From a virus: a DNA stretch of 64,000 bases. Numbering within the stretch: position 1 is the first letter of the stretch; every line of letters starts with the position of its first letter. The notes under the pieces were generated by a model that did no database searches, was not told where the DNA came from, and was given only the letters and a program-made list of their open reading frames with translations. Shown piece after piece: positions 11,725 through 53,277 of the stretch. The position numbers and the translations under genes are program-made. The stretch covers positions 1 to 64,000 of the IMG/VR virus record IMGVR_UViG_3300042691_033239; one strand, 5' to 3'.

Positions 11725-12291
11725 ATGAAAATAAGCAGATTTAATATTGGTTTTATCAAAGCGTACAAAGAACAGAATGGTCATTTCCCGCCGTCAGAGC
11801 TTGCGCCGGGAGAAGCTGCTGTAAGCGCCCCTGTTGCGCCTGAAGTTGAAGACCGTAGCGTGGAAGAGTTCTTTCTTGTGGACGCTCTAAAATCGCGTCA
11901 GGAAGCGTTACTGAGTGAATTGTCCCAGCTATCAGAAGTGGTCGAAGAGGTTGTAGAGAAATCACCTGTCATGGTTATTCCGGAAGAAAAAGAAGTTGTG
12001 GCAACTCTTCCTGATTTTGAATTAGAAGACGAAGAATTAGTAAGTGATAATTCATTCCATCCTCTTGATAGGGATCATGATGGTGACATTGAAGATGATT
12101 CGTTTGATGGAATGGCATATCCAATTAAGTTTGATCTTGTTGAGATGGGAGAAGATCATGCAGAAGAATTAGCAAGAAAGCTTGGCAAGAAGCATAAGAT
12201 TGGCCAGTGGCATGTAAGGAAACTAAATACTCTTCTTAGAGAATTGGCGAATGTTGGTATTGTAGAGTGGAATGAGAGCGATCCTTCTTAA
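11725..12291 (+). CDS. Acidic protein with EF-hand-like calcium loop
   Basis: 188 residues. Residues 115-126 (DRDHDGDIEDDS) fit the EF-hand loop D-x-D-x-D-G-x-I, with Asp at positions 1, 3 and 5 and Gly at 6, but position 12 is Ser instead of Glu, so calcium binding would be weakened or dockerin-like. The N-terminal 95 residues are Glu/Val/Pro/Ala-rich and probably extended or coiled; the C-terminal 50 residues are a basic helical segment. The first 200 nt look richer in GC than the surrounding DNA, which may mean acquisition from elsewhere. It has its own promoter. The last 56 nt overlap the end of the convergent phosphoesterase gene. No family assignment. Confidence 0.7.
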   Translation: MKISRFNIGFIKAYKEQNGHFPPSELAPGEAAVSAPVAPEVEDRSVEEFFLVDALKSRQEALLSELSQLSEVVEEVVEKSPVMVIPEEKEVVATLPDFELEDEELVSDNSFHPLDRDHDGDIEDDSFDGMAYPIKFDLVEMGEDHAEELARKLGKKHKIGQWHVRKLNTLLRELANVGIVEWNESDPS

Positions 12292-13000
12292 TAAAGTTGA
12301 TTAGCCATTCGCCTTCCCTTTCCTCTGTTATATATGAATTACTATCTACGAAGTCCCCTGAATTGATATAGAGCCTTCCGGCCGCATAATCAAAGCAAGG
12401 GATATGTGTATGCCCACAGATGATAATATCATAATCATTCTGTATCGCATATTGTATTACTTTATTATTAAAATTTGATGTTGTATTTACAATATGTTTT
12501 ACTTTATCTATAATAAATTCAGCAAATTTCTGCATATATTTCTTTTTTGATATATATGAATGAAATATAAAATCACTTACCTTTGCTATGGAATCCAATT
12601 TAGATGAAAATACATCAAAACTGTCTCCATGAATCACACAGCATTTGCGATTTAATTTATCAGTAAAAATATATTTATCTACAAATTTTATATCATTAAT
12701 AACAAATGGGGTAAAATTTCTAATAAGATCATCATGATTTCCGGTCACATAAATAACATTACTATAATTTGTTAATTCTATTATTCTTGATATAATATCT
12801 AAATGTTTTTTTGTAATTACTTTATCTTTCTCATTAAAAGGATAATAAAACATTTTCCAGAAATCAAATATATCACCATTGAATATCCAAGTATTAGCAA
12901 CATATGTATCCAATATATATTCAATAGCATCCAAGTTCTCTAAAGAACTTCCCATGTGAATATCAGAAATAATAATTGTATTTACATAATGTTTATTCAT
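12236..13000 (-). CDS. LpxH-like calcineurin-type metallophosphoesterase
   Basis: 254 residues with all five metallophosphoesterase motifs: DIH (Asp13, His15), GDIFD (42-46), GNHD (87-90), HGD (His124) and GHTH (196-199). The pattern NGDIFDFW and the late YINSGD (211-216) resemble UDP-2,3-diacylglucosamine hydrolases (LpxH family), which act at the membrane in lipid A synthesis. The metal-binding residues are complete, so an active enzyme is likely, but substrate assignment from motifs alone is uncertain. It is the last gene of an overlapping minus-strand operon, starting 6 nt after the acetyltransferase stop. The end overlaps the convergent gene at 11725-12291 by 56 nt. A role in changing lipid A metabolism of a Gram-negative host is inference. 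Confidence 0.8.
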   Translation of the reverse strand: MNKHYVNTIIISDIHMGSSLENLDAIEYILDTYVANTWIFNGDIFDFWKMFYYPFNEKDKVITKKHLDIISRIIELTNYSNVIYVTGNHDDLIRNFTPFVINDIKFVDKYIFTDKLNRKCCVIHGDSFDVFSSKLDSIAKVSDFIFHSYISKKKYMQKFAEFIIDKVKHIVNTTSNFNNKVIQYAIQNDYDIIICGHTHIPCFDYAAGRLYINSGDFVDSNSYITEEREGEWLINFIKKDRSHSTLQYQHSPIL

Positions 13001-13006
13001 ATATCA

Positions 13007-13507
13007 TTAAATATCTCTTGTCATGATATGTTCGTATCCATGAATTCCATCAATTTCAAATCCTTTTCTTTTTAACATATTAACTATATTTGGATTTACA
13101 ACATGCAATCTAATGTAGTCTTTCCTTTGCTCATCATCTTCATCAACTTCATCATACATATTTTGGTATACGCCTGAATTATGCTGTTCTTTGCAGAAAT
13201 CTATAAATTCATCAATAAGCTTAGAGCCTATGCCTTTTCTTTGATAATCAGATCTAATGGCAAGATCGGCCATATAACAATTATCTTCAAGATTATGTCT
13301 ATAATAAAGGCACCCAACTATTACCGGATCTGTATCTTCATATTCATCACTGTCATCCTCGGGTTTTACTGATGCATCCTCTGCATAAAGCAACAAATCA
13401 TAAGATGAACTTATTTTATTTTGAACCATGATTATTTCACATTGCCTTGCAATTGAACTGGTTCCAGGTTCATCTTCGTAATATTGTAATATTAATATGT
13501 TATTCAT
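13007..13507 (-). CDS. GNAT-family N-acetyltransferase
   Basis: 166 residues from the ATG at 13507, which overlaps the stop of the upstream gene by 8 nt (ATGAATAA), implying translational coupling; the longer frame to 13549 lies wholly inside that gene. Motif A of the GNAT fold is clear: LAIRSDYQRKGIGSKLIDEF (about 82-101), with QRKGIG binding the acetyl-CoA pyrophosphate. The later NPNIVNMLKRKGFE (about 138-151) is the usual motif B. An acidic insert lies near residues 48-60. The enzyme would transfer an acyl group to an amine; the target is unknown. It sits between an effector-like protein and the phosphoesterase, so protein or antibiotic modification are both possible. Confidence 0.85.
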   Translation of the reverse strand: MNNILILQYYEDEPGTSSIARQCEIIMVQNKISSSYDLLLYAEDASVKPEDDSDEYEDTDPVIVGCLYYRHNLEDNCYMADLAIRSDYQRKGIGSKLIDEFIDFCKEQHNSGVYQNMYDEVDEDDEQRKDYIRLHVVNPNIVNMLKRKGFEIDGIHGYEHIMTRDI

Positions 13508-15197
13508 TTGCAGAAAATCTCTCCAATTCATCTTGAGACATATGACCAAGTTTAATTAGATTTTTTCCTAAAACAGTTGAAAAGTCATATTTATCTTTTT
13601 TTAAATTTTCAATAACCTTATTTTTAAGTTTATTTATAGTCTCATTTGTTATACTTGGGTTTTCCAGCATATTTAGAATAAAACTGTTTTTGTTGTTTTC
13701 GTAATTTATATTTAAATCAAATAAATCAACAATTTTATCTTGAATTTCTTGACTTAAATTAAATTCCTTAAAAAATATATTTGAATAAAAAATTACATTT
13801 TCTTTCGGAATTGGAACATGCACAAGTGTTGTATAAATATAATTATTAATTTTGTCATTATTTATATTTGCATTTATAAAATATTGCATTTTAAAATAAG
13901 AAAGCGATATTCTGATCAAATATTCAAATGTAGCATAGGGCAAGTCATTGAATCTGGGCGAAAAATAATAATATATAGTATCCATTATTTTTGACGAATA
14001 ATAAGTTCCATATTTAGCCCTACTTCCGAATTGATTCAAAACGGGTAAAAATATAAAATTTAAATCCGGAACGTCTAAGAAAATTCTGATGTATTTGTTG
14101 ATATCTTCAAAATTCATTTTATTGAATAATTTAAACAATATAACACTATTATTTTTATATTTGTCATGTATTAAATTTATAATTTGGTCACTGTAATTTG
14201 AAGTATTATCAATTATTATAGAAGCAAGCCCGTCATCCAAATTGGGATTTCTTAAAAAGAACAATGCCTCGTCTGAAGAAAATCCAGAATTATCTTTTAA
14301 ATAATTAAAAACTTCCATTTGGACTTCTTTAATGGAAGAAGTTTCAGCGACATTAAGTAAATTTTGATACTCCATAAAATTAGGATGGAATCCAATCTTG
14401 TAAGATGATCTTGCTAACTGCTCAACTATTATATTGTAATTTTCTCGACCATAATAATTGATAATATCGTCTTCTGTGATGACCTGATCCATTGCGTCAA
14501 CAACTGTCCCATCATTCTCATAGGTAATGCCTTCATCTTCTGAATAACCAAGAGCAATTTTATAAAATGGGTTTTCCATACTGTCATTTTTTTTATCAAA
14601 AACAAAATAAATAAAATTATTTCCTTTTGTTGTGTAATAATCAAACATATTATCTTTTTTTGCTGATATACACCATTTAGTGTTAGCGCCTAGCTTAACC
14701 GATCCCATAACATTTTCCGGGAAGTAAATAGTAAGACGCTCATTTTCATATATTTTTTTATATTTAGGTTTTTGGTTCATCATCAATGAACTCATCTGAG
14801 CGAACTTATCTATCTCATATCGAAGATCCGCAACCGTCTTATATACAAGCTCTTTAGTCTTTGGATTGATAGCTAAAATATTCTTTTCTTTTAATGATTT
14901 TTTGGTATCCACAAATGAATCAAGTATTTTAAAAAATAATTCTTTATAAGAAATGCCTTCTGTAGAAACTTGTTCTTTTAGATATTTCAACACCCATTGC
15001 TTAATTGAGCTATCATATTTATGAATATTTGAAGATAAATCTCTACGCATATCCTCTTCAGACATTTGCTCTAAAAAATCAGGCTTGTTCTTTTTTATTA
15101 GATTAACAATAAGATCAACATACTCAGTATCTTTTCTTGATAATTGCTCTAATATTAACTCTTTAATAAATTTTTTTAATACAATGATATTATTCAT
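13500..15197 (-). CDS. WC-motif protein with capsid-targeting-like N-terminus
   Basis: 565 residues. Residues 8-19 (KKFIKELILEQL) belong to a recurring N-terminal amphipathic peptide with an (L/I)xE-type site, seen in at least four other proteins here. Residues 152-230 hold a domain with LGANTKWCISAKKDNMFDYY (169-188) followed by beta strands (FIYFVF) and an acidic turn; the same WC(I/V)S core occurs in the three genes at 49.6-53.3 kb. The remaining 330 residues are helical and rich in Asn/Ile/Tyr. The ATG overlaps the upstream stop (ATGA). No enzymatic motif is recognised. I infer an internal head protein from the N-terminus, but this is not proven. Confidence 0.8.
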   Translation of the reverse strand: MNNIIVLKKFIKELILEQLSRKDTEYVDLIVNLIKKNKPDFLEQMSEEDMRRDLSSNIHKYDSSIKQWVLKYLKEQVSTEGISYKELFFKILDSFVDTKKSLKEKNILAINPKTKELVYKTVADLRYEIDKFAQMSSLMMNQKPKYKKIYENERLTIYFPENVMGSVKLGANTKWCISAKKDNMFDYYTTKGNNFIYFVFDKKNDSMENPFYKIALGYSEDEGITYENDGTVVDAMDQVITEDDIINYYGRENYNIIVEQLARSSYKIGFHPNFMEYQNLLNVAETSSIKEVQMEVFNYLKDNSGFSSDEALFFLRNPNLDDGLASIIIDNTSNYSDQIINLIHDKYKNNSVILFKLFNKMNFEDINKYIRIFLDVPDLNFIFLPVLNQFGSRAKYGTYYSSKIMDTIYYYFSPRFNDLPYATFEYLIRISLSYFKMQYFINANINNDKINNYIYTTLVHVPIPKENVIFYSNIFFKEFNLSQEIQDKIVDLFDLNINYENNKNSFILNMLENPSITNETINKLKNKVIENLKKDKYDFSTVLGKNLIKLGHMSQDELERFSANE

Positions 15198-15880
15198 GAA
15201 GGATCATATCCCCACTCTTGTATGGAGTCTCCGCTATTATATACCTGACTTGCTTTCACGCGCATAGACACAATTTTATATTTGTAGCCAGAACCAACAG
15301 AATGTCCTTTACCATGATCCTCTGCATATTCTTTGGTAATAGCTACCCAATCGCCAGGATTAATTACAAACATCTTTCTTATGCTCTTCTTATATTCACT
15401 ATACTCTTTCTTCAATGATCCATCCAGATATCCAGGCTCAAGTTCAGATAATTCACCATCAATGTAATCTAAAAATAATCCGTAATTAGATTTAACTTCT
15501 CTTGGAATATCTATATGAAATTTTGATGGAATTTTAATAAATCTTTTTGCATAAGATTTGTATTCTGATAATTTTTCATATCTATAATATCCTAATTCTT
15601 TTTCTTTATAGTTATTATAGATTACTGCGCGATATATAACAACCGTCTTATTCGGCTTATCTCGATATGATCGTATTATAGATAAAGCTTCACTATCAGA
15701 TGAATGTGCAGTTAAATAATAACTTGGATTTTCATAAATACCTGGAAAGATGCTTGAAAGATCATAGAGAGGATCACCGCTTTCCTTATCAGGAGCAGTA
15801 TGATCCATTCTATAATCCATATCATTTTGTTCAAACAATAAAGATTTTATATATTTCTTTATTACATCTTTATTATTCAT
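15194..15880 (-). CDS. ADP-ribosyltransferase-like protein, putative internal head effector
   Basis: 228 residues. The segment after residue 78 fits the R-S/T-E class of ADP-ribosyltransferase folds: Arg84 in VVIYRAV, INPGDWVAITKEYAEDHG (173-190, Thr182 in the S/T position) and the C-terminal SIQEWGYDP with Glu222 as candidate catalytic residue. Similar YRA/GDWV/EWGY sets occur in phage proteins, from memory. Such enzymes transfer ADP-ribose from NAD to protein. The N-terminus (KKYIKSLLFEQN, 8-19) is almost the same as that of three WC-motif proteins and ends in LFE, a gp21-type cleavage site. T4 Alt is a precedent for a packaged, ejected ADP-ribosyltransferase. No clear ribosome-binding site is seen. 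The gene is 15 nt after its upstream neighbour and overlaps the next by 4 nt (ATGA). Confidence 0.72.
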   Translation of the reverse strand: MNNKDVIKKYIKSLLFEQNDMDYRMDHTAPDKESGDPLYDLSSIFPGIYENPSYYLTAHSSDSEALSIIRSYRDKPNKTVVIYRAVIYNNYKEKELGYYRYEKLSEYKSYAKRFIKIPSKFHIDIPREVKSNYGLFLDYIDGELSELEPGYLDGSLKKEYSEYKKSIRKMFVINPGDWVAITKEYAEDHGKGHSVGSGYKYKIVSMRVKASQVYNSGDSIQEWGYDPS

Positions 15881-15895: not shown

Positions 15896-16498
15896 TTACT
15901 TTCTAACTCTTTTCTGTGAAAACTTCTTGACCATTTCCTGTTCGATTCTAGATAAAAGGCCGCTCATGAATTTTTCATCAGACATAAGTTTGTCGGCAAG
16001 ATTAGCTTCCGCTGCTTCTATTTCCTGTTCTGCCCAAGCCAAAATTTTATCATTGTTCGCCTCTATTTCACCGCGAAGTTCCGATTCAACCGCTTCCATT
16101 TCTTGCTCTGCCCAAGATAACGTTTTATCTCTGGTCGTATCTAATTCTTTACTGGTGAAATCCTTAGCTTTCTCAAAGTCCTTATCACTTGATTTTTTAT
16201 CAAGCAAAGAAGCCTGAGCTACAGCACTATCATAAGCCGTCGCGCTTGCACCCTTCAATCCAGTATCTTTTCCAGTCTGAAATTCAAAATCATCTTCTTT
16301 CTGTCTGCGAATTGAATCGTAATCCTCATTTTCACCAGCAGGACGACCAGTCTGCATAGATGCCATTTTTTTAGGGTCTATCCCTTTCATTCTATTATAC
16401 AAATTCTGAATAAACTGTTCGTTCATTCCCATTGCTTTTGCTTCTTGAAGAATCAAGCGGTCAATATCTGTCAATCTCAACTTCTTAGTTGCGGTCAT
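15896..16498 (-). CDS. Coiled-coil protein with internal repeat, possible internal head protein
   Basis: 200 residues from the ATG at 16498, preceded by GGAG 12 nt upstream; a TTG 18 nt earlier would swallow the ribosome-binding site. The N-terminus (LTDIDRLILQEAKAMG) again ends in an (L/I)xE-type site (LQE), though it is less like the other candidates. Residues about 120-165 contain a duplicated helical segment (LSWAEQEMEAVESELRGEI, then LAWAEQEIEAAEANLADKL), strongly predicted to form a coiled coil; the C-terminus is basic (SQKRVRK). First gene of the effector-like operon and located just after a terminator, so a promoter should lie nearby, but I cannot identify one with confidence. Confidence 0.72.
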   Translation of the reverse strand: MTATKKLRLTDIDRLILQEAKAMGMNEQFIQNLYNRMKGIDPKKMASMQTGRPAGENEDYDSIRRQKEDDFEFQTGKDTGLKGASATAYDSAVAQASLLDKKSSDKDFEKAKDFTSKELDTTRDKTLSWAEQEMEAVESELRGEIEANNDKILAWAEQEIEAAEANLADKLMSDEKFMSGLLSRIEQEMVKKFSQKRVRK

Positions 16499-17091: not shown

Positions 17092-19545
17092 TCATTGTAT
17101 ATGTTTATTAGAGAGTATAAAAATATGTTCATACTTAGAATTTGACTTATCGCCAAAGTGATTTGTATTTAACATTAATTTATATTCATCCTCTATAAAC
17201 CAATTTTTATGATTATTCAATATTACATTTATCATATCTTTTCCTATGGTTTTCTTACCTAGTGAATATTTTGATATATTTAGAATTATTCTTGAGTCTG
17301 GTGCCATAAGAACATTCATATTATCAACTACTTTCTTCCACCAAACATTAATGAATGTATCATATTTATAATCACTCAAAGCAATTGACTGGCCTTCCAT
17401 AGATAAATGATCGTATATCTCTGTGTCAAAATAAGGCGGGGAAGAAAAACATAATTTAAATTTACCTATAAATTTAGGATCAATGTAATCTAACATTTTT
17501 TCTGCGCCAACTGAATACATATGTAATCTGTCGATATGAATATCCTCAATTTTTTGATTATCTATTAAAAATCTATGCATAGAATTAATAGAATCAATAT
17601 TTGATCTCCACGGATCAAATCCAACATATGTTAAATTTTTATCTAATAAAGACATTGCGCCAAGATAACGATGACCAAATCCAGATGATATATCCAGAAC
17701 ATTATCATTTTTACTGGCAAATTTATCATATATAGATTTAGCAAATAAAGGATCAAATACGCTTATATTCGCACCCCTCATCACTTTCATTGCCCCACGA
17801 ATCATTGCTCCACTTATGCCAAAATACTCTTTGTTATATGTAATATGCATTCTATTGTGAATGACATCCATTAGATCTTTATCACTATTGAATATCTCTA
17901 TAAATGATTTTCCATTTTTTTTCTTTGTATCGTAATATTGAGGAGAAAAATGATACACAAAATTCCTACCATGATTATGAACCCCTTTATAGCACATACT
18001 ATTATCATTATCTTTATAATATTGATAATCTTTAAAATTACTTACATTATCAAATTCCTTAGATAATTCACCGCCAGATAACTTAATGTATGGAAATCCA
18101 TATTCTCTATAAAAATCAAATACATTATCCGCAACTAATTTTCTGTCATTAATATCAAGCAATCTATCTTTCACAAATTTAGCGTCTAATTTATTTTCAA
18201 AATAATTAATATGTTTATTTGTTCCATATTCGGACTCAAGGCAATGAATATTTTTGTTTATGAAGACATTATCAAATTCATATAAATTATTTTCATTTTT
18301 AAGAATTTTCTTACCCGACTTTTTGCTTTTTATAACTCTATACTTAGTTGAAGTATCTTTAAAAAATAATTTTCCTGCATTAATTTTATCAATCTCTTCC
18401 TTGCTGAATCTCGCCTTTATCTCTATTACTTCATCATTATCCCTACTATAAAAATCTGGAATGTATATTTTATTATCATAAGGTATTCTGAAATTGTGGA
18501 TCTTTGAATATGATCTATTGCTTTCGATACAATTATGAAGAAACATTGATTCCCATCTACTATGCATAAATTCTTTCTGTTCGCTAAATGGATTATATAG
18601 CCATTCAGTAAGATATAACTTACTCGCCAAATCTCCGTTATTTATCCTTCTGATCGTATGCTCTCTCGCAATATTCCTTCTCTCTTCATTGTCTATCCAT
18701 GACTTCAGTGCGGATTGAGATTGCTTCTCTCTAGTTTCAATTGTTCTAGACTTTCCGTAAGAATAGGATTTCTCACCACATAAAGGCTCTTTGCCTGTCA
18801 AAGAATTATGCCCAACAATATATTGATTAAATCTTCTCAGCAATTCTGAATAATTAGTTTCTTTGCCGCAGCCACATTTACACAAGGGAGGCTTACCATC
18901 ATAAACACTATGAATGAGATAATCTTCATAAGAATCGATTTGATGATAATCTTTAATATGATTTTCAAATATTTTAAAACTTCCAATGATATTTAGATTG
19001 CATATTTTACATACTCTGTATGTTTCTACTTTCTCTGATTTTGGATAATAAAAATTAACAGTGTTCTTATCGTAATGCGATAAATGATTAGCCAAAGATC
19101 TTTTAGAATCAAATGATCTTCCGCATATTTTACATACATAAAAACCTAGCTCGCCACTACTATGTTCTTTTGCATAATTTACTAATAAATTGGAAAATAG
19201 TATTTTTAAATGATGAATTGACCAATCTATAGATTTGATCATTTTTATTCTTCTTCTTGCCAATGATAAATGGCTTGGCTGCCTATCCTTACTAAATCCT
19301 TGAATATTTGAATTATGACCATTTACATATTCATTATACTCTTTATTTGATTTATGCCATAGAACTTTCTCATCACATCCACATTTACATAGAGGAATAT
19401 TATTGTTAAAATAATGTTTTAATGTATATTCTTCCATTGTCATTTTATGAAAATTAGACAAATGCATACCCAAAGATCTTTTATTATTTTCCAATATAGA
19501 TCTTCCACACTCTAAACATGTATCTCCATAATTTATTTTATTCAT
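17092..19545 (-). CDS. Zinc finger - PD-(D/E)XK nuclease - DNA methyltransferase fusion
   Basis: 817 residues from the ATG at 19545, which follows AAGAGAG; the frame extends 20 codons further without a ribosome-binding site. Domain order: zinc-finger-like modules with CxxC and histidines (10-80, 138-160, 178-250, each of the first and last ending in a CKCGC loop), a basic linker, then a nuclease-like core with E332 region, IPDF (Asp364) and IEIKA (Glu375, Lys377). At the C-terminus is a methyltransferase with motif I LDISSGFG (617-624) and motif IV SSPPYF (701-706), of the SPPYFD type seen in phage DNA methyltransferases. Together these suggest a self-protecting endonuclease or a homing-like element. 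It lies just downstream of the capsid gene and its terminator, and the zinc fingers resemble those of mobile endonucleases. Confidence 0.8.
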   Translation of the reverse strand: MNKINYGDTCLECGRSILENNKRSLGMHLSNFHKMTMEEYTLKHYFNNNIPLCKCGCDEKVLWHKSNKEYNEYVNGHNSNIQGFSKDRQPSHLSLARRRIKMIKSIDWSIHHLKILFSNLLVNYAKEHSSGELGFYVCKICGRSFDSKRSLANHLSHYDKNTVNFYYPKSEKVETYRVCKICNLNIIGSFKIFENHIKDYHQIDSYEDYLIHSVYDGKPPLCKCGCGKETNYSELLRRFNQYIVGHNSLTGKEPLCGEKSYSYGKSRTIETREKQSQSALKSWIDNEERRNIAREHTIRRINNGDLASKLYLTEWLYNPFSEQKEFMHSRWESMFLHNCIESNRSYSKIHNFRIPYDNKIYIPDFYSRDNDEVIEIKARFSKEEIDKINAGKLFFKDTSTKYRVIKSKKSGKKILKNENNLYEFDNVFINKNIHCLESEYGTNKHINYFENKLDAKFVKDRLLDINDRKLVADNVFDFYREYGFPYIKLSGGELSKEFDNVSNFKDYQYYKDNDNSMCYKGVHNHGRNFVYHFSPQYYDTKKKNGKSFIEIFNSDKDLMDVIHNRMHITYNKEYFGISGAMIRGAMKVMRGANISVFDPLFAKSIYDKFASKNDNVLDISSGFGHRYLGAMSLLDKNLTYVGFDPWRSNIDSINSMHRFLIDNQKIEDIHIDRLHMYSVGAEKMLDYIDPKFIGKFKLCFSSPPYFDTEIYDHLSMEGQSIALSDYKYDTFINVWWKKVVDNMNVLMAPDSRIILNISKYSLGKKTIGKDMINVILNNHKNWFIEDEYKLMLNTNHFGDKSNSKYEHIFILSNKHIQ

Positions 19546-19677: not shown

Positions 19678-21696
19678 TTAGAATACGTTCATATCAAGAA
19701 CATGAACTCTTCCATAGTAATCCGCACGGAGCATCTTCTTACCATATCTTGTCATAACACCCTTTCTTGGCGTGAAATCTTCTGTATCATACAATGTTGG
19801 TGTGATGATAAGAGGAACATAAGGAGCATAAACATAACCTGTTTCCAACCATGTTTGTCCCTTGAATCCAACAAGAATCTGGTTAGGTACAAAGTACGGG
19901 TCTTTGTATACCACGAATCTATTGGAAAGTGATCCCATCGGCTCAACACCAATTGACATTGGATTGCTTACCTGTCCCGCGCCGTCTACGGAGTAGTTTG
20001 GACGGTAATAGGATGAAGCTTCAAGCATTGTGGATACTGCTGGTGAAGTAACCAAGAAGTTACCTGCTCCGCGAAGAGACTTACGGTGAATTTCGTTGGA
20101 AACGTCAATAACAGTTTCGATAAGCGTTTCATACCATTCTCTCTGAGTTCCAACCTGCGTTGGTCCTGGAGCAAGCGTGCTTGAACGAAGAATTTCTTCA
20201 CCAGTCAACTTATTGACAACCTTACCATTTAGACGTGACCAATAGAATACTGCCGCCGAAGCGCCCACAAGAAGGTCATTCAAGATTTCTCTATCGACTT
20301 CAAGTGCGATCTGCTCTGAAAGAACAGATGTTAATTCAAGGTCTGCATCCAATGTGTGATATGCATTCAAGTCCTGAGCAAGTTCTGGCGACCAACGAGC
20401 ACGAAGCTTACGTGTGGATGCTGTTACTGCTACAGATTCAATACGGATATCGATTTCTGGAATTTCAGGCGTAGGCATTCCGTTTGCTGATCCCTGACGG
20501 AAATCAGATTCAAAGGTAGGTACTGCTACTGTCTGACCGTCTGCGTCAACCGTTAATGTCGCTCTTATTGGATAAGAAGCTGAAAGAACCGGAGTTCCGT
20601 TCAACGTTGCTACACCTGGGTTTGCATCTGTAGAATCAGCGAATACGATCAATGCGTAAACATGGTCGGTTCCGATTGTGAAGTTTACTGCCTCTTCGAT
20701 ATCAGCCTCAGTTACTCCATTTCCTACGATTGCAGCAGCCGTAGCTGTTGGTCCCGCAGCAAATAGCTGATTCCATCTACGATACTGAGTTACATCAGAA
20801 CTTCCAGATACAGTTAATTCAGTGATCTTTGTTAAGTCACCTCTTGTCTGCTGTGAACGAGATGTTGGCGTAAATGTTCCCGGATCTGTCGTTGCAAGTG
20901 TCGTAATAATACCTGCTGTATCTCCGGCAGCTACACCACCCCAACCAGCAGGAGCAGCAACAAATCGATTTGTTGCGCCTGGTGTTGCAAGAGGATCTAC
21001 GTTTGCCTGAAGCCTACGTCCATAAGATCCAGAAGAAAGGTCAAGAATTGCATAACGCAATGTTCCCAACGCTGCTGCTGTTTCAAGACGAGGATCGCCT
21101 ACTAATGTTGCGAATGGCAATTCACCTACGCCAGAAGCAGTTCCAGTTACCAATGTTCCTGTATGGGATACCTTGTATACGTTATATTCCCATGGTGAGG
21201 AATATCCCATACGGTAATCATACATACCACCTGTTCCGTCTGCACCTGCACGAACCTTAGCTCCAAGAGGATCGCCAAAGATTGATCTATTTGCATTATA
21301 TGCATTGAACCCTACATTGTTTCCATATGTAAAGTCAAGATAGAACAATAGTCCGGAAGGAAGTGCCATGGACTGCAATGATACCAATTCATTTGCAAGC
21401 AAGCCTGCAAATACTCTACGTACCATTGGGAATGCAATATTGGAGAAACCACGAAGAGTTCCCGAATCTGCACCCAATCCAGTTCCGATTGCGGACTGTT
21501 CCTTGATGATCTGAGCAGCCTGGTTTTCCAAAAGCTGTCCAAGAGCATTCTTAAGTGGTTCGCTTCTAAGTCCGCCTAAAAGACCCGTTGCTTCCCATTT
21601 CTGCATGATCTGCGCACTACGACGCTTTCTTTCCTGATCCGCAGTGATAATTCCCTGTGTTACTGCCCTCATTGGGACTTCATATCTATTACTCAT
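19678..21696 (-). CDS. Major capsid protein, T4 gp23-like
   Basis: 672 residues. The T4 gp23 hallmark region is clear: LLENQAAQIIKE (55-66) and FSNIAFPMVRRVFAGLLANELVSLQSMALPSGLLFYLDFTYGNN (84-127, with the core at 88-120). The LysGlu at 65-66 (IIKE) matches the position of the gp21 cleavage of T4 gp23 at residue 65, so proteolytic maturation is expected. The segment about 415-490 (IDIRIESVAVTASTRKLRAR and onward) matches the conserved core. It is about 150 residues longer than T4 gp23 (521), the extra sequence lying in about 225-400, Thr/Ala/Gly-rich and likely a surface insertion. AGGA lies 7 nt before the ATG. It is the last gene of the head cluster, followed by a strong terminator. Confidence 0.96.
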   Translation of the reverse strand: MSNRYEVPMRAVTQGIITADQERKRRSAQIMQKWEATGLLGGLRSEPLKNALGQLLENQAAQIIKEQSAIGTGLGADSGTLRGFSNIAFPMVRRVFAGLLANELVSLQSMALPSGLLFYLDFTYGNNVGFNAYNANRSIFGDPLGAKVRAGADGTGGMYDYRMGYSSPWEYNVYKVSHTGTLVTGTASGVGELPFATLVGDPRLETAAALGTLRYAILDLSSGSYGRRLQANVDPLATPGATNRFVAAPAGWGGVAAGDTAGIITTLATTDPGTFTPTSRSQQTRGDLTKITELTVSGSSDVTQYRRWNQLFAAGPTATAAAIVGNGVTEADIEEAVNFTIGTDHVYALIVFADSTDANPGVATLNGTPVLSASYPIRATLTVDADGQTVAVPTFESDFRQGSANGMPTPEIPEIDIRIESVAVTASTRKLRARWSPELAQDLNAYHTLDADLELTSVLSEQIALEVDREILNDLLVGASAAVFYWSRLNGKVVNKLTGEEILRSSTLAPGPTQVGTQREWYETLIETVIDVSNEIHRKSLRGAGNFLVTSPAVSTMLEASSYYRPNYSVDGAGQVSNPMSIGVEPMGSLSNRFVVYKDPYFVPNQILVGFKGQTWLETGYVYAPYVPLIITPTLYDTEDFTPRKGVMTRYGKKMLRADYYGRVHVLDMNVF

Positions 21697-24721: not shown

Positions 24722-25867
24722 TTATCTACCCGGATCTTTAAACATTCCCGAAACTTCTGAATTGTATGCATGGGCAGTTGCAGACAATTGCCCACTGGAA
24801 ATCATGCTATGATTTGACATATTCATTTTTTCTTGAATTCTCTTCTGTACTTCACTCATTCCACTATTATCATGCGTATTATTTGTTGGTGGAGCTTGAT
24901 TCTTCATTTTTCTTAATTTCATTTCTGGCGAAGATGGATCTACCATTGTAGGAGGAAGTGACATTTCCGTATCTACAGCGCCCATCGGAGGCGGAATGAC
25001 AGGCATTGCTGTATAATTATTATTCTGCATTCTAGGCATTGGAGGTGGCATCATCATTGCCTCATTATTCTGTTGTGGCATATAATGATTTGGATATGTC
25101 GGATCCATCATAGGGTTATTTTGTCTAGGAGCATGATTATGCATTGGCATTGGCGGCATCATTGAAACCGCAGGATCAAATGTCGGCTCCATCATTGAGT
25201 AATCATAGTTATTTTCATTCAACATTTGTCTCTGAGGGACTTGCTGTTGCGCAGCCATTGCCTGCTGCCTTCTCATTTGCTGTTCTCTCATTGCATATTG
25301 CCTTACTTCATTAGCATATTGAACTTGATAGTCATCATCTGGAATCGGTTCTGTTCCCTCAAAGAATGAGGCCATTCCCTTCTTATTGCTTCTAGGAACG
25401 CTAGGGTCGCCAAATGAGGCACCACCACCGCCACCGCCGACACCGCCATATCCATAGCCGCCCATCCCAGAAACTACTTGCTGCATATCAGAATATCCAG
25501 ATTGACGATCTACGCTAAAATCACCATATCCTTCCCCCTCATCTTCAAATACACGAACAAGAGGATCATCATACTCAGATGGCTTATTATTTTTAGGAGG
25601 CTGATTACTTGCCGCTTGTTTTCTTCTTTCCGGAGCATTTGAATTTTGACCATTTTGCGGTCTATTGCTATTCTGCTTTGCGCCCTGCGTGAATTTTCTA
25701 GTAATCTCTTCTTCTTTCTTTTTGAGTAAGCCTCTGATTTCATCAGATATATCTTCGATTACTGCTAATCTTATGGATTCAATCACATCTTCCAGCGTGT
25801 CATCTTCTAGCAAAATTTCTTTTACTATCATTCTAAACTGATCTAAATTTATTTTAAGTGTAGACAT
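24722..25867 (-). CDS. Asn/Met/Pro-rich putative internal head protein
   Basis: 381 residues. N-terminus: MSTLKINLDQFRMIVKEILLEDD, an amphipathic helix ending in LLE, like the candidate capsid-targeting peptides elsewhere in the window. A charged helical region follows (about 25-60, KKKEEEITRKF). Then come glycine-rich (GYGYGGVGGGGGG, about 134-146) and Met/Pro/Gln/Asn-rich stretches (about 190-330) of low complexity. The C-terminal 60 residues contain a charged helix (MSEVQKRIQEKMNMS). AAGGAATAATA precedes the ATG. It lies between the protease and scaffold genes, where T4 encodes core proteins, so a prohead core or packaged protein is the best guess. Confidence 0.68.
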   Translation of the reverse strand: MSTLKINLDQFRMIVKEILLEDDTLEDVIESIRLAVIEDISDEIRGLLKKKEEEITRKFTQGAKQNSNRPQNGQNSNAPERRKQAASNQPPKNNKPSEYDDPLVRVFEDEGEGYGDFSVDRQSGYSDMQQVVSGMGGYGYGGVGGGGGGASFGDPSVPRSNKKGMASFFEGTEPIPDDDYQVQYANEVRQYAMREQQMRRQQAMAAQQQVPQRQMLNENNYDYSMMEPTFDPAVSMMPPMPMHNHAPRQNNPMMDPTYPNHYMPQQNNEAMMMPPPMPRMQNNNYTAMPVIPPPMGAVDTEMSLPPTMVDPSSPEMKLRKMKNQAPPTNNTHDNSGMSEVQKRIQEKMNMSNHSMISSGQLSATAHAYNSEVSGMFKDPGR

Positions 25868-26317: not shown

Positions 26318-27460
26318 TTACCTATTCTCCATTTTTAATCTATTGTAATTCTCAGCAATACGATCAAGTTCATTGTCTAAATAAAAGTTTCTTCCACTCT
26401 CATTCAGATACATTTTTATTTCATCTGGCGTAACTTCCCTTCCTTCCTTGAAAACAAATGCGCCTGGAGTTGATGGTTCTGAAACAATATCCCAACATAC
26501 AAGCATAAAATCATCTTGCACTACGTTAGCGCCATTTACCAATTGGGTAGATCCTAATCCTCTTGAAGAAACACCCAGCGTGCATTCCGCCAAAACTATT
26601 GATTTGACTAGATCTCCCATTGGGGTAGGAATTAGCTCTAATCTGCCCCATAGTTCGTTGGGATTCTCTCTAGACCACCATGTTTCGGTAATAACATGAG
26701 ATGTCTTCTGGATTGAAACAACTACCGAGTCTGGATGATCACAATTTCCAGTAAAAAATGCATCGCCTTCTCTTTTAGCAAGCCAATTTCCAGAAGGAGT
26801 GGTAACGCAATATACCATTCCATCATAATTAACTTTATCTATATTTACATTTTTTCCGCTAATAAAATTAACAGAAAGTCCATATGTTTCATAAAAGATC
26901 TTCTTTTTATTTTTTGATAATAGAGATATTGCTTTTTCATAAAATGGATTTCCATTCTTATCAAAAAATACCATTTTATGACTATCAGTAACGAGTATAT
27001 CAAGATTAGCATCAGAATTAGTAAATCTGATCATATCGCCATGATGCATTCTCTCTGTTTTAGCTAAAACAGGCTCAAGAATAAGTTCTTTGGTATTCAT
27101 ATCCATGGAAAACACCAACTCACCAATCTCTACGTCTTTAAGAAACTTCCATCCGGATCCTGTCATTATCTGAGTTTTATCATCAACACATTCCCCGTAA
27201 CTACTTCTTTGGGCTATAACCCTTTGATAATTATCAACTTCTCTCTTTAGGATTTTATGAGGATATATTCTTTTATTGTGATTTAATGTTTCAGATTTTT
27301 GTAATACTCCCTTTAATATAATTTTACCATTAGAGCGTTTTTCAACATCAGCCGCATAAAATTTTTCGGGAGCTTCCCTTAGTATACGTATAGGATTTTT
27401 ATTTGATGACAATCCGCTAATACTTTCATATTTCTTTTCGCCATTATATGTATCTGACAT
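26318..27460 (-). CDS. Prohead maturation protease (gp21-like) interrupted by a mini-intein
   Basis: 380 residues, of which 91-239 are an intein; the spliced protease would have 231 residues, close to T4 gp21 (212, from memory). The N-extein carries the substrate-binding region (KGVLQKSETLNHNKRIYP, 51-68). The C-extein begins with Cys240, then DHPDS, where His242 is the expected catalytic histidine. The catalytic serine is in LGVSSRG (Ser298 or Ser299). The enzyme cuts scaffold, capsid and internal head proteins after (L/I)xE-type sites during head maturation. AGGAG lies 10 nt before the ATG. The order portal, two unknowns, protease, core, scaffold, capsid follows T4. Protease activity would depend on intein splicing. 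Confidence 0.92.
   Translation of the reverse strand: MSDTYNGEKKYESISGLSSNKNPIRILREAPEKFYAADVEKRSNGKIILKGVLQKSETLNHNKRIYPHKILKREVDNYQRVIAQRSSYGECVDDKTQIMTGSGWKFLKDVEIGELVFSMDMNTKELILEPVLAKTERMHHGDMIRFTNSDANLDILVTDSHKMVFFDKNGNPFYEKAISLLSKNKKKIFYETYGLSVNFISGKNVNIDKVNYDGMVYCVTTPSGNWLAKREGDAFFTGNCDHPDSVVVSIQKTSHVITETWWSRENPNELWGRLELIPTPMGDLVKSIVLAECTLGVSSRGLGSTQLVNGANVVQDDFMLVCWDIVSEPSTPGAFVFKEGREVTPDEIKMYLNESGRNFYLDNELDRIAENYNRLKMENR
26744..27190 (-). other. Mini-intein in the prohead protease
   Basis: 149 residues spanning Cys91 to Asn239 of the protease frame. The N-terminal splicing block starts CVDDKTQIMTGSGWKFLKDV; block B has the T..H pair in TDSHKMV (about residue 158-164); the C-terminal blocks read YDGMVYCVTTPSGNWLAKRE and end FFTGN followed by extein Cys. 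The penultimate residue is Gly instead of His, as in other phage inteins I recall. The length leaves no room for a homing endonuclease. Cys1, Asn at the end and Cys+1 are all present, so splicing should be possible. The insertion is beside the catalytic DHP motif. Confidence 0.93.
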
Positions 27461-35879: not shown

Positions 35880-35882
35880 AAA

Positions 35883-36821: not shown

Positions 36822-36825
36822 AATA

Positions 36826-37251: not shown

Positions 37252-37321
37252 TAGGATTACGACTCTCCATTCTTCAAATTGTGCCCACCACAATTTTAAA
37301 TAGAGAGTCAAGAATAGATAT

Positions 37322-38656: not shown

Positions 38657-38700
38657 CTTTTATTTATCCTATGTTATTTTGGAAGTGCCCATCGCTATTA

Positions 38701-38729
38701 TTGACACATGGACACCATCTGTTTATACA
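38701..38729 (+). promoter_or_regulatory. Candidate plus-strand promoter, antisense to the SbcD-SbcC gene
   Basis: TTGACA (38701-38706), 17 nt, TATACA (38724-38729). It lies in the gap after the minus-strand SbcD-SbcC gene and points into it. No plus-strand gene follows, so if active it would make antisense RNA to that gene's 3' end. Confidence 0.35.
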
Positions 38730-41700
38730 TTACCGTATCTTACATTAGAATAGCCTTGGGCGTCAACATTAACATTGATAACATGGTCCACAAGATCTTT
38801 GATGGCGTCTATATGAGAGATAATGACGATGTTTTTGAAGCGAGACTTAAGTGACTCGAACAATTTTCCTATGACCATTCTATTATCATCATCTAAAGCA
38901 CTAAATCCTTCATCTATAATAAGCGTAGAGAACTTAGGCAATGTGCTTATCTTTAACAATGCGACTCTTATAGCCAATGAGGCAATCATCCTTTCAAAAC
39001 CAGAAGCCAATTCAATATATCTTCTTGGCTTATATTCTTCATCAATATAAATTCTAAATTTAGGATCTTTCAAATCAAATAATACAGTAAATGGAACGGC
39101 ATCCGCAAGAATATCATTTATTTCCATATTAATAATATCTTGCATATCTTCCAATACTTTTTGAACAATGCCATTTCTGGACAATGCCTCTATGATTAAT
39201 TCATACACTTGATATTCATCTCTTGCGGATTTAAGATTTGATAATTCTTTTTCCAATACTTCAATTTGTCTTTCTATATTTCCAGACATTTTATTCATAT
39301 TATCTTTATCATTCTTTTCAGACGCTAACATTTTCTTTGCATTGTCTACTAATAATTTAGTATTTTTTATTTTTTCTAATATTTCTTTTTTTTCATTATT
39401 TAAATCTTCTATATCAACAGAGTTTTCTAATTTTTCATTAAAGACTCCAAGTAATTCTGTTTTTGTTTTAATTTGATTAGAAGCCAATTCTAATTTATTT
39501 TCAAAATTAGATATTATATTTTCTGTTTCTTTGATAGACTTATCAAAAGAATAATATCTATTGACCATTTGGCTTTTAATAAGAATATCATTTTGAATAA
39601 ATGATATTTCATTTTCATCAAGAAGAGGATATTGATTTATCTTATCTTCTAGATCCTTAATCTTCCCTCTAGCTTCAAAAGCATTTGAGATAAATTTGCA
39701 TGTTGGGTATTCATTCCCACAAGGAACTTCAGACAAAGGATTCGCAAGCTTTCTTAGATTTTCTAAATCTTTCTTAAGACTATTTACTTTGTTTTTATCT
39801 TCATTATTTTTTGAAATTCTTGCATTATGGTCGATAATAATATCTTCATTTTTCTCTATATCCGAAAAACTAATATTTTCTTTTTCTTTTATCAGAGATT
39901 GAAGTTGCCTTTTACTTTCCTCTACTTGAGAATTTATTTTAGATAATCCGGTTTTTAATATATTGATTTCATTATTACATTTTTCTATATCCGCAATAAT
40001 ATTACTTTTTATATTATTCTTGTGAGATGCAATTTTATCATCAATTGCTTTAAGCTGAAATTCTTCCGTGGCCAAGACACTCATGATTTGATCATAAGAT
40101 GTTGTGAGAATTTCTATCTGTTTATTTTTTTCTTCAATGTCTAGTATATTTTTAGCTAAAGATTGTTTGTTATTTTCTATATCAATCAAAATATCTGATT
40201 CTTGCCTTTTATTATTAGAAACTTTGGATTTAATAGGTGCGGCCATTGATTTAGCAATTTCCATCTGTTGATCAAAGAAATCTAAATCAAGAACATTAAT
40301 CAAATAATCCTTCCTTGGTGATTCAGTCATATATATAAATTTATGAATTTGATCTTGCGGGGATATACTTGTTGTTACATAATCTTCCATAGATCCAATC
40401 ACAGACTGAATCACTGTGTCTGTTTTTTGTCTTTGGATACTGCTTATATCTTCTGAATTCTTATAGATCTTAACATTCGTCTTAGACTTACCACGATCTC
40501 CTGCATCTTTCGCATCGCTTTCTTTCCATTCATAATCTCGTTCTATTGTATATTCAGTTCCGGCAGAATTTAGAGTTAATTTGATAGATCCATAATTACA
40601 CCGATTATTTACCGCATAGGCTGGGCTTGGAATTCTTCGAGAAAGATTGTTGAATGCGCAGAGAAGAATATTATCCACAACAGAAGACTTTCCTATTGCG
40701 TTTGGACCAAATATACCAACAACACCATTAAGAAGTGAGAAGTCAATATAGTTATCTGTTCCATAAGAAAACATATTATCAAATTCAAGTCTGTTTATAT
40801 CAAACATGACATTTCTTATTTGTTTTTCTTTATCTTGCGTTTCGACAGATGAAGATATTTGATGATATATTTCTTCATGAATTTCGAGAACTTTATCTTT
40901 TACTTCGCTTGAAGTATTTTTATATCTACAAAAATCATTTAATAATCTTTTTTGAATATTTAAATCTCTATAATTGATATTATGATCAGAAATGTGGTTA
41001 TTGCCGGCACTTAATTTATCATACTTTTTAATAATTCTTTTTTCTTTTGGTAAGAATTTTGTAATAATCGGAGATATGATATTTTGAATTTCAGCATCAC
41101 TAAGATCATCTTCAATAATGAATCGACCGTATGCATTCTGTGGAGGATCCTGATCTAATGTGCTGTAGGATACTTTACCATTTCTCACTGTATATGTAAT
41201 AAATGGACACATATCATCTATTTTAATAAATTCTTTTTTATATTCAGTTTTAGATGAAATATCCCAAATAAAATATCCTTTGTCATTTGCCTCTCCATAA
41301 TCTTGTTGAATTAAAGATCCGGCATACCAAATGCTATCGTCATTGCCAATAGATTGTTTCTTGTGAATGTCTCCCAAGAATGTATAATCAAAAGGATCAA
41401 ATATATCTGCATTTATTTTTGTTTCTAGCTTATAACCAACATCTGTTTTACTGCCATTGATAGCGCCATGGTACATTCCTATATTAATTTTATCTTCTGA
41501 TAATCTTGAATATACCTTTTCATTCCATTCCTCTGATGAGTCAAGAATGGACAAATTGCAAAAACAAATATTACCAAACTCCGCTATTCCTGAATATTTC
41601 AGATATTGTATTCTATCTGATTCAAGTGCATTGTAAATGGGAGTAATTGCGTCTTGCCTTTTCTGATTAGAAAGATTGATATCATGATTACCCATGATCA

Positions 41701-49643: not shown

Positions 49644-50780
49644 TTATCTTCTTACACTTTTAATAAGCTTAAGATAATTGTAAGCCTCTTTGAAAGGAAA
49701 TCCACCTGAGAAATTAATATTTGCCATTAATAGCTCCAAGAAGTCGATCCCATAAGTATTTTCATAGTATTTATCCAGAGTCTTTATTACATCTTTGCCT
49801 ATCTCTTTTAAGGTAAATTCATGTTCGTTGTCAGATATATCCATAGTTTGATGCTCTTCGCCATAATCATGAATTTGAATCATAAATCTTCTAAATCCTT
49901 GTTTTATTATTAATAAAAATATTTTACTATATTGTGAGTAATTTTGAAAATTATTTACCGCTGATTTGGTCGGAGAATTATCTTGCTGGGTTGTTGAAAC
50001 ACACCATCCACTATCAAATCCCAAAGCGCATGATGCCTTTGCTGTTAATACTTCCAATAACATTTTATCACCAGAAGAATAAACCAAATTATAGTCAGTT
50101 CCCCTAACCAAAGCCTCCAGTTTTTTTGAAAAAATCTCTTCCTGCTCTTTGGAATCATATTCATGATAAATTGTAAATGATGCATCGCCTATGTATTCAT
50201 ACCAAGTTTCCATTCTCCCAGGCTCTTTATATTCCTTTTCATAGTAATCAAAAAATTTTTTAATTTTAACCATATCTTCATCTATGAGATTGGTAGATTC
50301 TAACTCTTTATGAAGATCTATAAAAAGATGAATTGTTTCCTCATCAAATTTTTGTAAAATTTGATTCATTTGTCTAAAAAATGCATCTGCGTATTCCGTA
50401 GATTTTTCTTCTAAAAATATATAAATCATATTAATAGATTTACATTCTAATAATTCATCAAAATTTTTATATCTATTTATATCTTTATGTAAGCATCCAG
50501 AAAATTTCTGCTCGGGAAAATGTCTAATCTTGTAGTGAATTTCTAAAAATTCTCCCAATGGTGATAAATTATATGTATCATCATTAATAAGATTATCTTC
50601 TCTTGAATAACACTTACATATCCAGTCTAAATACTTTTTGTTTGGCGAAGGATCATAATAAGAAAGTGATAGGATAACATCTTCACTCATTTTATATTTG
50701 TTTGATAAAAATGATATTTTATTTGATAAATCTTTTTGTTCAATAAGAAGTTTTATATATGATTTAAGTATTTTTATCAT
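49644..50780 (-). CDS. WC-motif protein C, capsid-targeting-like N-terminus
   Basis: 378 residues. The N-terminus MIKILKSYIKLLIEQKD matches the recurrent peptide of the window, ending in LIE. A shared segment DPSPNKKYLDWICKCY (43-58) is found in the two neighbours as DPS...Y.(D/E)W. Residues 225-300 hold the WC domain: SCALGFDSGWCVSTTQQDNS (250-269, Trp259-Cys260) followed by strands and an acidic turn (DYGEEHQTMDISD). The first 17 nt overlap the end of the 50764 gene, so the trio is translationally coupled. No catalytic motif is recognised. A packaged protein is inferred from the N-terminus. Confidence 0.78.
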   Translation of the reverse strand: MIKILKSYIKLLIEQKDLSNKISFLSNKYKMSEDVILSLSYYDPSPNKKYLDWICKCYSREDNLINDDTYNLSPLGEFLEIHYKIRHFPEQKFSGCLHKDINRYKNFDELLECKSINMIYIFLEEKSTEYADAFFRQMNQILQKFDEETIHLFIDLHKELESTNLIDEDMVKIKKFFDYYEKEYKEPGRMETWYEYIGDASFTIYHEYDSKEQEEIFSKKLEALVRGTDYNLVYSSGDKMLLEVLTAKASCALGFDSGWCVSTTQQDNSPTKSAVNNFQNYSQYSKIFLLIIKQGFRRFMIQIHDYGEEHQTMDISDNEHEFTLKEIGKDVIKTLDKYYENTYGIDFLELLMANINFSGGFPFKEAYNYLKLIKSVRR

Positions 50781-52032
50781 TTAAAAATTTATCCCAAATT
50801 TCTTCACCAGATCCTAATTTACGAAGAATATTTCTTAAATTGCTGATAACATCCGGATTTACACTTGATGCCGTATTAACATCTCCAGTATATTTTTCAA
50901 TTCCAGATAAAATGTCATATATATAATCATTAAATTCATTATCAATTAAATTATCTTCCATGTATGATGATAATGCCATTATTGATTGATTTGAAAGGTT
51001 AATAACAACTTCATTATCATATAAATCCTTAAATTGTGTCATTCTCAACAGATCATAATCATATATCGGTAATGATATTAAGTATTTATTTGACTTTTTA
51101 CCTTCTTGTTTTTTCATATAAAAGAATATGAATGAGTCATTGCTATAACTATCAAATATCTGTCTTGCGCTATTTGTAGGCTCACTTTCTTTGGTTGATG
51201 TAGATACACACCAAAAAGAATCTTCTCCTAATTTACATGTTGCGTTGACAGATTTTATGTGAAGAAGAATTTCGCTATCACTTTCATAAACAATAGAATA
51301 ATCAGTATCTTTATTAAGTAATGTTATGATATTTTTAATCTCATCAAATTTTTTCTCTTCTAAATCTGAAGATGCATTTTGTTCGATAAATTCCATAAAT
51401 TTTTGATAATCAGATGTTAAGTCTGGATTTCCACCATATTTTTCAAATAAAATAAATTTTCTTCTCAGGGCACTCGAATCTTCCTGCAATTGTGAAATTT
51501 TTTTATCAATTGTTGTATTGTTAAACAAATATAAATAATGCATTAATATTGTTACGTATGATAAATAAAATTTAGGAAGTATATAATTACATAAATTTAA
51601 AAATTTACTAATTTTTTCATTAGATTTATCACAGAAAAAAATAACTCTCCTTAAAACTTCAGATCCTATCAGGTCATGAAAATTTATATCATATATACTT
51701 CTTGGAAATAATTCAGATGTTTTATTTCTAAAATTTTTACTAGATAATATATTAAAAGTATATAAAAAATTATTTAATTTTCCTAAAGAAAAAGATTCAA
51801 AAAATATTTGATCAGGATTTAAAAGATTAACATATTCTCTTAAAATCCAATCAGAATATATTTTATCAGCAGACGGATCTTGTTCTATTGCATAATCAAT
51901 TAAAAAATTTATTGTATTTTTACTAATTTTACCTTCATATTTTTTCTTAAGGTAATTTATCGTTTTACTATAATTAAAATTACTATTTTCAAATAATAAT
52001 TCTTTTATATATTGTTTAATTAAATTTTTCAT
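50764..52032 (-). CDS. WC-motif protein B, capsid-targeting-like N-terminus
   Basis: 422 residues. N-terminus MKNLIKQYIKELLFENSN, the closest match to the ADP-ribosyltransferase-like protein (YIKSLLFEQN), ending in LFE. The DPSADKIYSDWILREYV segment (52-68) is shared with its neighbours. The WC domain is at about 240-350, with TCKLGEDSFWCVSTSTKESE (265-284, Trp274-Cys275), then SFIFFYMK, an Ile/Tyr strand and DLYDNEVV. The middle is helical and Asn/Ile/Tyr-rich. It starts 3 nt after the 52036 gene stop. Function unknown. Confidence 0.78.
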   Translation of the reverse strand: MKNLIKQYIKELLFENSNFNYSKTINYLKKKYEGKISKNTINFLIDYAIEQDPSADKIYSDWILREYVNLLNPDQIFFESFSLGKLNNFLYTFNILSSKNFRNKTSELFPRSIYDINFHDLIGSEVLRRVIFFCDKSNEKISKFLNLCNYILPKFYLSYVTILMHYLYLFNNTTIDKKISQLQEDSSALRRKFILFEKYGGNPDLTSDYQKFMEFIEQNASSDLEEKKFDEIKNIITLLNKDTDYSIVYESDSEILLHIKSVNATCKLGEDSFWCVSTSTKESEPTNSARQIFDSYSNDSFIFFYMKKQEGKKSNKYLISLPIYDYDLLRMTQFKDLYDNEVVINLSNQSIMALSSYMEDNLIDNEFNDYIYDILSGIEKYTGDVNTASSVNPDVISNLRNILRKLGSGEEIWDKFLNDKNT

Positions 52033-52035
52033 TGA

Positions 52036-53277
52036 TTAATAATCACCTACAGCCTGCCTAAGAATTTGCATGACATTTACATATGTTGTTTCTCCAAATT
52101 CACCAATATCATCAATTTGAAATTTATATTCTTCAAACATTTCAACTACATAATCCGCATCATATCCATTATTATGATACAATAAGTATATTGATCCGAG
52201 TGCATTACTGGAGAATGGAACAATAATGGGCTGATCCTTTATATCCATAAATTGCATATCGTCAAAATTAAAGATCTTTGGTAATGAGATCATATATTTT
52301 GTATTTTGATTTATATAAAATAAAACAAAAGTATTTGCATTATATCTATTAAAGTATTTACTAGAGCTATCTGTCGGGCTCCCATCTGATCTTGATTGAG
52401 ATATACACCATTTTGTTTTCATTCCGGCAGTACATGAAGCCCTAGGGCTTAATAAATGGATAAGGAATTCAATGCCATCATCAAGCAAAATAACATAATC
52501 AACTCCTTCCTTTAGGTTATTTTTTATGTTCTTTTTTGTTTCAATAATATTTTCTTTTGATGAATCTATGGGGGCTTCCTCATCATTAAAATTTTCTACA
52601 TCATAGATTGTGTATGAATAAACATCACCATATTTATATCCACCAAGCTCCTCAAATGTATCGAATGCATCGGTAAATCTATTTTTATCTTCTTCAAATC
52701 TACTTTTTGTATAATTTTTAAGTGTATTCCACAATATAACAACATATTTATGTCTGATAACAGGTAATATTTTTAAAACGCCATCAAGATCGTAACCTAT
52801 CTTCATAATATCATATAATTCCCGAATAACAGGAATAAAATCAGATAAGTCATCAAATGACTCATAAAAATTTATATCAGGATTAAATTCAAATTGTATT
52901 TTATGTCTTGGTATTTTTTTGATAATATTATGAATTTTAAGATAAGATTTTATTCCCAAAATAGAATGTATAGGCTCTCCATCATCTTTTATGAAATTTT
53001 TAACTACCCATTCCGTATAGTCTGAGGCGTTCGAGGGATCGATATTTTCCGCAACAAATTTAATAAATTGTCTTAGTATTTCTTCCGGATTGTCGCCTGC
53101 CTGACTATGACCAGGATAAGTCAAATTTAAGTCTTTATCTATATATTGATATTTATCACTTTGATAGATATTTAAAAATCTTGGTAAATATTTTTTAACT
53201 AAAAAATTTATTTTATTGTCATTAATTCTACCTTCATTTAAAATTAATTTAATATATTCTTTTAAATGATTATTCAT
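52036..53277 (-). CDS. WC-motif protein A, capsid-targeting-like N-terminus
   Basis: 413 residues. N-terminus MNNHLKEYIKLILNEGRIND with LNE as possible cleavage site. The DPSNASDYTEWVVKNF segment (81-96) is shared with the two following genes. The WC domain (about 255-360) contains SCTAGMKTKWCISQSRSDGS (281-300, Trp290-Cys291), then TFVLFYINQ, a strand ISLPKIF and DIKDQPIIV. An acidic region lies near 225-245. It is first of the trio, 14 nt after the structural gene at 53292. No clear ribosome-binding site was seen, so it may depend on the upstream message. Confidence 0.78.
   Translation of the reverse strand: MNNHLKEYIKLILNEGRINDNKINFLVKKYLPRFLNIYQSDKYQYIDKDLNLTYPGHSQAGDNPEEILRQFIKFVAENIDPSNASDYTEWVVKNFIKDDGEPIHSILGIKSYLKIHNIIKKIPRHKIQFEFNPDINFYESFDDLSDFIPVIRELYDIMKIGYDLDGVLKILPVIRHKYVVILWNTLKNYTKSRFEEDKNRFTDAFDTFEELGGYKYGDVYSYTIYDVENFNDEEAPIDSSKENIIETKKNIKNNLKEGVDYVILLDDGIEFLIHLLSPRASCTAGMKTKWCISQSRSDGSPTDSSSKYFNRYNANTFVLFYINQNTKYMISLPKIFNFDDMQFMDIKDQPIIVPFSSNALGSIYLLYHNNGYDADYVVEMFEEYKFQIDDIGEFGETTYVNVMQILRQAVGDY

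Follow-up and report, generated by a model that had tools for sequence, protein, structure and literature searches.

The closest described counterpart of the peptides studied here is the capsid targeting sequence of phage T4, whose core recruits internal proteins by means of an N-terminal peptide of 10 residues, which is cut off by gp21 after a Glu (PMC9026906, PMC5694885). For the packaging of IPIII, its first 10 residues are sufficient (PMC9026906), and gp21 sites include ITE and LTE (PMC5694885). IP1-3 of T4 have only the leader in common, and every one of them inhibits a type IV restriction system (PMC12373910), while T-even relatives carry further internal proteins that are recognised by their leader (PMC9026906, PMC12373910). 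Here we analyse short N-terminal peptides (tags) on several proteins of an uncultivated T4-type phage, the source of the 69.6-kb record IMGVR_UViG_3300042691_033239, of which positions 1-64,000 make up the 64,000-nt stretch analysed (the window). These peptides are quite probably lineage-specific capsid targeting sequences that differ in sequence from those of the T4 internal proteins but are of their type, and that the prohead protease would remove; packaging, cleavage and injection of the tagged proteins, as well as an effector role, are what we infer from their sequences.

All genes of the window at which the earlier note had reported a common N-terminal peptide do bear it, and all of them lie on the minus strand. 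Gene 15194 starts with MNNKDVIKKYIKSLLFE (15830..15880), with a predicted cut before QND and the homologous part of its body beginning about four residues past the Glu. The tags of genes 13500 (MNNIIVLKKFIKELILE, 15147..15197), 50764 (MKNLIKQYIKELLFE, 51988..52032) and 52036 (MNNHLKEYIKLILNE, 53233..53277) have their predicted cuts before QLS, NSN and GRI, respectively, and that of gene 49644 (MIKILKSYIKLLIE, 50739..50780), one residue shorter than the strict form, before QKD. Two looser versions had also been proposed. The one at the N-terminus of the head-core candidate 24722 is present (MSTLKINLDQFRMIVKEILLE, 25805..25867, ending in LDQFRMIVKEILLE before DDT), whereas that of gene 15896 (MTATKKLRLTDIDRLILQE, 16442..16498) is a weak candidate from direct reading, taken from an internal ATG start (LTDIDRLILQE before AKA).

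As in T4 (IPI, IPII, IPIII and Alt), a short N-terminal peptide precedes proteins of unrelated mature sequence and ends in a gp21-type site, and the phage encodes an S77 protease; an ADP-ribosyltransferase is moreover a known T4 cargo (PMC9026906, PMC5694885, PMC12373910). The systems differ in the peptide itself, which is LLREYIRELLxE or MKITKRQLRRIIKE here and MKTYQEFIAE in T4, and in the many more kinds of protein found here (27 families for one tag), in distant and uncultivated relatives. Because the T4 term rests on function, we do not treat sequence likeness as defining, and we do not claim homology to the T4 peptide. Likewise, a reporter enters the head when it carries just the N-terminal 30 residues of DarB from phage P1, but the N-termini of the Dar proteins show no consensus (PMC9024508). 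The inner head proteins of phiKZ and SPN3US also carry propeptides cut after Glu by the prohead protease (PMC5694885), but this protease belongs to another branch (PF03420 finds none in phiKZ) and recognises an A/S/G-x-E site.

The gp21-type protease that the earlier note had placed in the window is confirmed at 26318..27460 (Pfam Peptidase_S77, E 5e-18), as part of a minus-strand head module of T4 type (31525, 28787, 26318, 25899, 24722, 21738, 19678). The predicted cleavage site at the tag end is of the right type for it, the match with T4 gp21 sites being one of site type only. The major capsid protein, of the T4 gp23 superfamily (19678..21696, minus strand), contains IIKE at residues 63-66 (21499..21510), a predicted maturation site before QSAIG and the positional counterpart of FLTE before A in T4 gp23. 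Q follows the predicted cut in this protein, as it does for three of the five tags of cargo genes. Next to the protease gene, most relatives encode a protein of 138-163 aa with an N-terminus like LKxLVKECLxEILxEG, and 24722 with its LDQFRMIVKEILLE holds this place in the head cluster of the window. In a second group of genomes, a protein encoded near the protease starts with MDKLKEYIKTLVRELLDE, which is close to the cargo tag. A second pattern scan mostly retrieved this head-cluster protein and not cargo. Another scan of IMG/VR, for the second tag, gave a zero that is uninformative, as it fixed CGN for an Arg that is often AGA in these genomes. We also observe that an intein-like Hint segment interrupts the window protease and separates its S77 halves. 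In a relative, G002, two S77 pieces lie far apart within one 570-aa frame (88364-90076), which suggests a similar intein-like arrangement.

These features would fit the following sequence of events. While the prohead core assembles, the tag, as an amphipathic N-terminal helix, would bind the core and carry its protein inside; it resembles the start of the core protein whose gene adjoins that of the protease. The S77 prohead protease would then cut after (L/I)(L/I)xE at the tag end, as predicted for the major capsid protein, and the mature cargo protein, now loose inside the head, would enter the host together with the injected DNA. That the tag instead directs its proteins to another place (for example a tail structure, a replication compartment or the membrane of the host), or serves as an assembly helix for a partner other than the core, is unlikely, even if less so than the other alternatives. 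It would agree with the tag being a short amphipathic helix and with genes 49644-53277 lying amid probable tail or structural genes, but the prohead protease site type at the tag end, the likeness to the head-core N-terminus and the occurrence of tags in protease-bearing phages speak against it.

Descent from a single duplicated and spread gene family, best conserved at its N-terminus, accounts for part of the window. Compared with the first 22 residues removed, the three tandem carriers 49644, 50764 and 52036 (49644..53277, minus strand), which have an x-x-W-C core and are all tagged, are paralogues, with identities of 26-28% along about 300-370 aa and E values of 1e-18 to 1e-22. The body of 13500 (13500..15146, minus strand; GANTKWCIS) matches them weakly through a G-x-x-[TS]-x-W-C core (E 8e-5 with 50764). 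The body of 15194 (15194..15829, minus strand; PHROG 2579, E 3.5e-30) is unrelated to all four. Consequently, the unrelated sequence said to follow the peptide holds for 15194 and not among the W-C proteins, and the several cargo types become two unrelated kinds in the window instead of five, besides the head-core protein 24722. As a full explanation, common descent is refuted by unrelated bodies behind one tag, including 27 unrelated families behind the tag described below, and the pair test excludes homologous pairs; we regard it as very improbable.

All five W-C proteins in the genomes examined bear an N-terminal tag, one of them in another lineage, G018, where the protein starts with MNLTIKQILREG. 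Relatives of 13500, 50764 and 52036 were not found among cultured phages; IMG/VR yielded one distant relative of the W-C paralogues and none of 13500. No meaningful match emerged when profiles of the W-C family and of 15194 were searched against PDB and NCBIfam, and the AlphaFold2 models were too poor for use (pLDDT 41 for 15194 and 45 for 52036). The 15194 body has homologues in Vibrio phage 1.081.O, in a Manatee Spring phage and in L006/L004. In a hypothetical protein of Vibrio phage 1.081.O, the homologous part begins directly past MYSFSEFINLAE, a T4-like N-terminus. In further phages, larger proteins include a domain that the body also matches, and one of these proteins contains LPD38 and ART-PolyVal, so that the same body occurs in three N-terminal contexts: behind its own tag, behind MYSFSEFINLAE and inside larger proteins. 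Polyvalent proteins and MuF-fused effectors are proposed routes of enzyme injection (PMC5512222, PMC9503650). The relationship of 15194 to a domain of injected polyvalent proteins links the window to them, but the proteins found here stand alone behind a small tag and are not fused into a giant or structural protein: 15194 has 228 aa and lacks several different domains, whereas its relative sits within a 1,959-aa polyvalent protein. The product of gene 15194 is a possible ADP-ribosyltransferase, with no match to a Pfam ART family.

The capsid-targeting reading draws its independent support from other genomes. Relatives were chosen through the major capsid protein and not through tags (G018 through the W-C family), and non-homologous proteins with similar N-termini were counted against an internal null after removal of homologous pairs. 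The observed pairs exceed this null in G005 (36 versus 0.5), G018 (14 versus 1.3), G002 (12 versus 0.7) and G014 (5 versus 0), and, among later contigs, in G010 (9 versus 0.2) and G012 (6 versus 0) and not in the others. The same test recovers the known IPII/IPIII tag of T4 (MKTYQEFIAE; 65416, 65834) as a positive control, and shows no excess in phages without S77 (SPO1, 0 versus 0.5; phiKZ, 1 versus 1.2; FelixO1, 0 versus 0). A generic motif derived from the first genomes gave 20 N-terminal matches, about one third of them the core protein itself, against about one expected in eight contigs that played no part in writing it (G003, G004, G006-G010 and G012).

Flavobacterium phage immuto, an isolated phage, also has an excess (11 versus 0.3), from two tag groups. 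In its genome (NC_055915), genes 1803, 103806, 117631 and 118632 have FDLKKFLVENKLT-like N-termini and genes 25061 and 111675 share ILSEQFxRMQxLAGIITE; one tagged protein is annotated as a cobalamin adenosyltransferase. When tag peptides were compared with cultured phages, the matches were immuto's own and one weak uncultured record.

A broad range of carriers shares the LLREYI(R/K)EL tag. In G005, ten consecutive genes with varied bodies start with M-x-LLREYI(R/K)E-like sequences (34094-40240; L125-L126), an island that includes GNAT-like, HAD-like and HELVH metallopeptidase-like proteins. As a DNA pattern, LLREYI(R/K)EL occurs in IMG/VR at 50 sites in 28 stretches of 22 contigs, the sites not all being independent as several contigs are closely related. 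The relaxed tag is found on 91 proteins of 27 families without mutual similarity, and a hydrophobic-hydrophobic-x(1,2)-E end is present in 26 of these families. The expectation that the motif would lead to further cargo genes is thus borne out in related contigs, although a motif search revealed no additional carrier in the 5.6 kb of the record beyond the window. Eleven stretches were retrieved by a scan of genome contigs, and the N-terminal ones with a full open reading frame (ORF) seem to lie on contigs of phages that were binned with metagenomes.

Repeated N-termini could also arise if conserved DNA at gene starts (leader, promoter or translation-start region) were mistaken for coding sequence. 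Gene starts were assigned by a simple longest-ORF rule, and this gave one false signal of the kind. In Vibrio phage 1.081.O (L280-L291; for instance 130312, 143514 and 144413), several genes are immediately preceded by a conserved sequence, probably a common promoter or leader, which is read as SFIETQLTENIMT; the resulting pair excess is an artefact and was not counted. The LLREYI tags behave differently: at all 50 sites the pattern is preceded by a start codon at a distance of exactly two codons, and the tag codons change synonymously while the residues are kept (199 synonymous versus 164 non-synonymous differences among the G005 tags), which indicates selection on the peptide. This synonymous divergence refutes a DNA artefact for these tags, and such an origin is even less probable than common descent alone. 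Chance, on the grounds that proteins of an AT-rich genome often have amphipathic helices at their ends and that the hydrophobic moment of the tags is ordinary among the N-termini of the window genome, has a negligible probability, given no internal match to the strict motif, near-zero counts after shuffling and no match in IMG/VR to a scrambled LLREYI pattern.

The counts of the window motif come from the whole record. The strict form [YF]IKx[LI][LI]xE occurs four times within the first 20 residues and at none of 21,189 internal positions, so that the equal internal frequency expected of a chance pattern was not seen. The relaxed form [YF]IKx(1,2)[LI]x(1,2)E has five N-terminal matches and one internal match, and when the residues of each N-terminus were shuffled among themselves, strict matches averaged 0.0015 (maximum 1 in 2,000 rounds). 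The associated p-values (about 1e-5) are optimistic, as the motif was defined after inspection of the window genes, and the window by itself is therefore suggestive and not decisive.

Several observations weigh against capsid targeting. Most carriers in the window are paralogues, and the tag has no sequence homology to the T4 targeting peptide, the generic motif finding no match in T4. P-SSM4, Mel-JY01, G016 and G011, although of the T4 superfamily and S77 type, show little or no tag expansion and no clear pair excess, so S77 does not imply tags. In favour, nine of the ten LLREYI-bearing contigs with a length of 100 kb or more do contain S77 (those below this length being probable fragments), a figure that stands without the S77 base rate among large contigs. 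Tagged N-termini surpass untagged ones in likeness to the core N-terminus of their own genome in four genomes (p 5e-4 for the window, then 4e-8, 2e-7 and 5e-6), but this may partly reflect a shared basic amphipathic helix character, and some N-termini outside the tagged list score equally against the core in G002, G005 and G014. Finally, we came across no virion proteomics data on any of these uncultivated phages.

On balance, we lean towards a broader proposal, in which a large branch of uncultivated T4-superfamily phages would use a modular cargo system: a gene would be recruited to the virion through a tag of 12-20 residues that imitates the phage's own prohead-core N-terminus. Some genomes would deploy at least a dozen tagged proteins as an injected first-strike set, and, the tags being lineage-specific, the injected proteome would be readable from the genome. 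RNA repair enzymes, nucleases, kinases, acetyltransferases, superoxide dismutase (SOD) and ADP-ribosyltransferase-like proteins would belong to this set. Functions were assigned by Pfam matches, most families having no recognised function. They include RNase_T (1.5e-13) and zeta-toxin-like kinases (5e-12 and 1e-12) behind LLREYI tags, and SOD (8e-18), a kinase-phosphodiesterase (AAA_33 and CPD) and PolyA_pol (1.5e-35) behind other tag types. While T4 already provides an example of this type of mechanism, its tags, lineages and range of cargo here appear to be new, and none of the papers found in the collection searched describes these tags. If the proposal is true, the injected protein set of uncultivated phages, which usually requires virion proteomics, could be predicted from sequence. 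It would also provide a catalogue of candidate enzymes for anti-defence and host takeover, many of which, like the W-C proteins, belong to no recognised family, and phage heads could be loaded with proteins by means of new address labels. Since the three internal proteins of T4 all inhibit type IV restriction enzymes (PMC12373910), the tagged proteins without assigned function are good candidates for counter-defence.

Some individual proteins deserve mention. Tagged iron/manganese SOD-like proteins occur in G014 (125839-126525) and G002 (18296-19003; the copy on which Pfam was run) and are candidates for a virion-packaged SOD. G002 also encodes several tagged paralogues with a VVYHGTG start (L111-L123; for instance 181405-182730), which look like ADP-ribosyltransferase effectors; the one examined has a leucine-rich-repeat-like C-terminus. 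Elsewhere in the head module of the window, a terminase (31525), a portal protein (28787) and a scaffold-like protein (21738), all on the minus strand, were named from reading and position. Outside it, a 557-aa protein (339-2012) reads like a class II lysyl-tRNA synthetase. It is followed at 2142-4862 by six tandem small proteins of 136-167 aa, a duplication array, possibly immunity-like, with the common core Y-K-P-x-N-I-x-F ... G-x-Y-x-S-Y.

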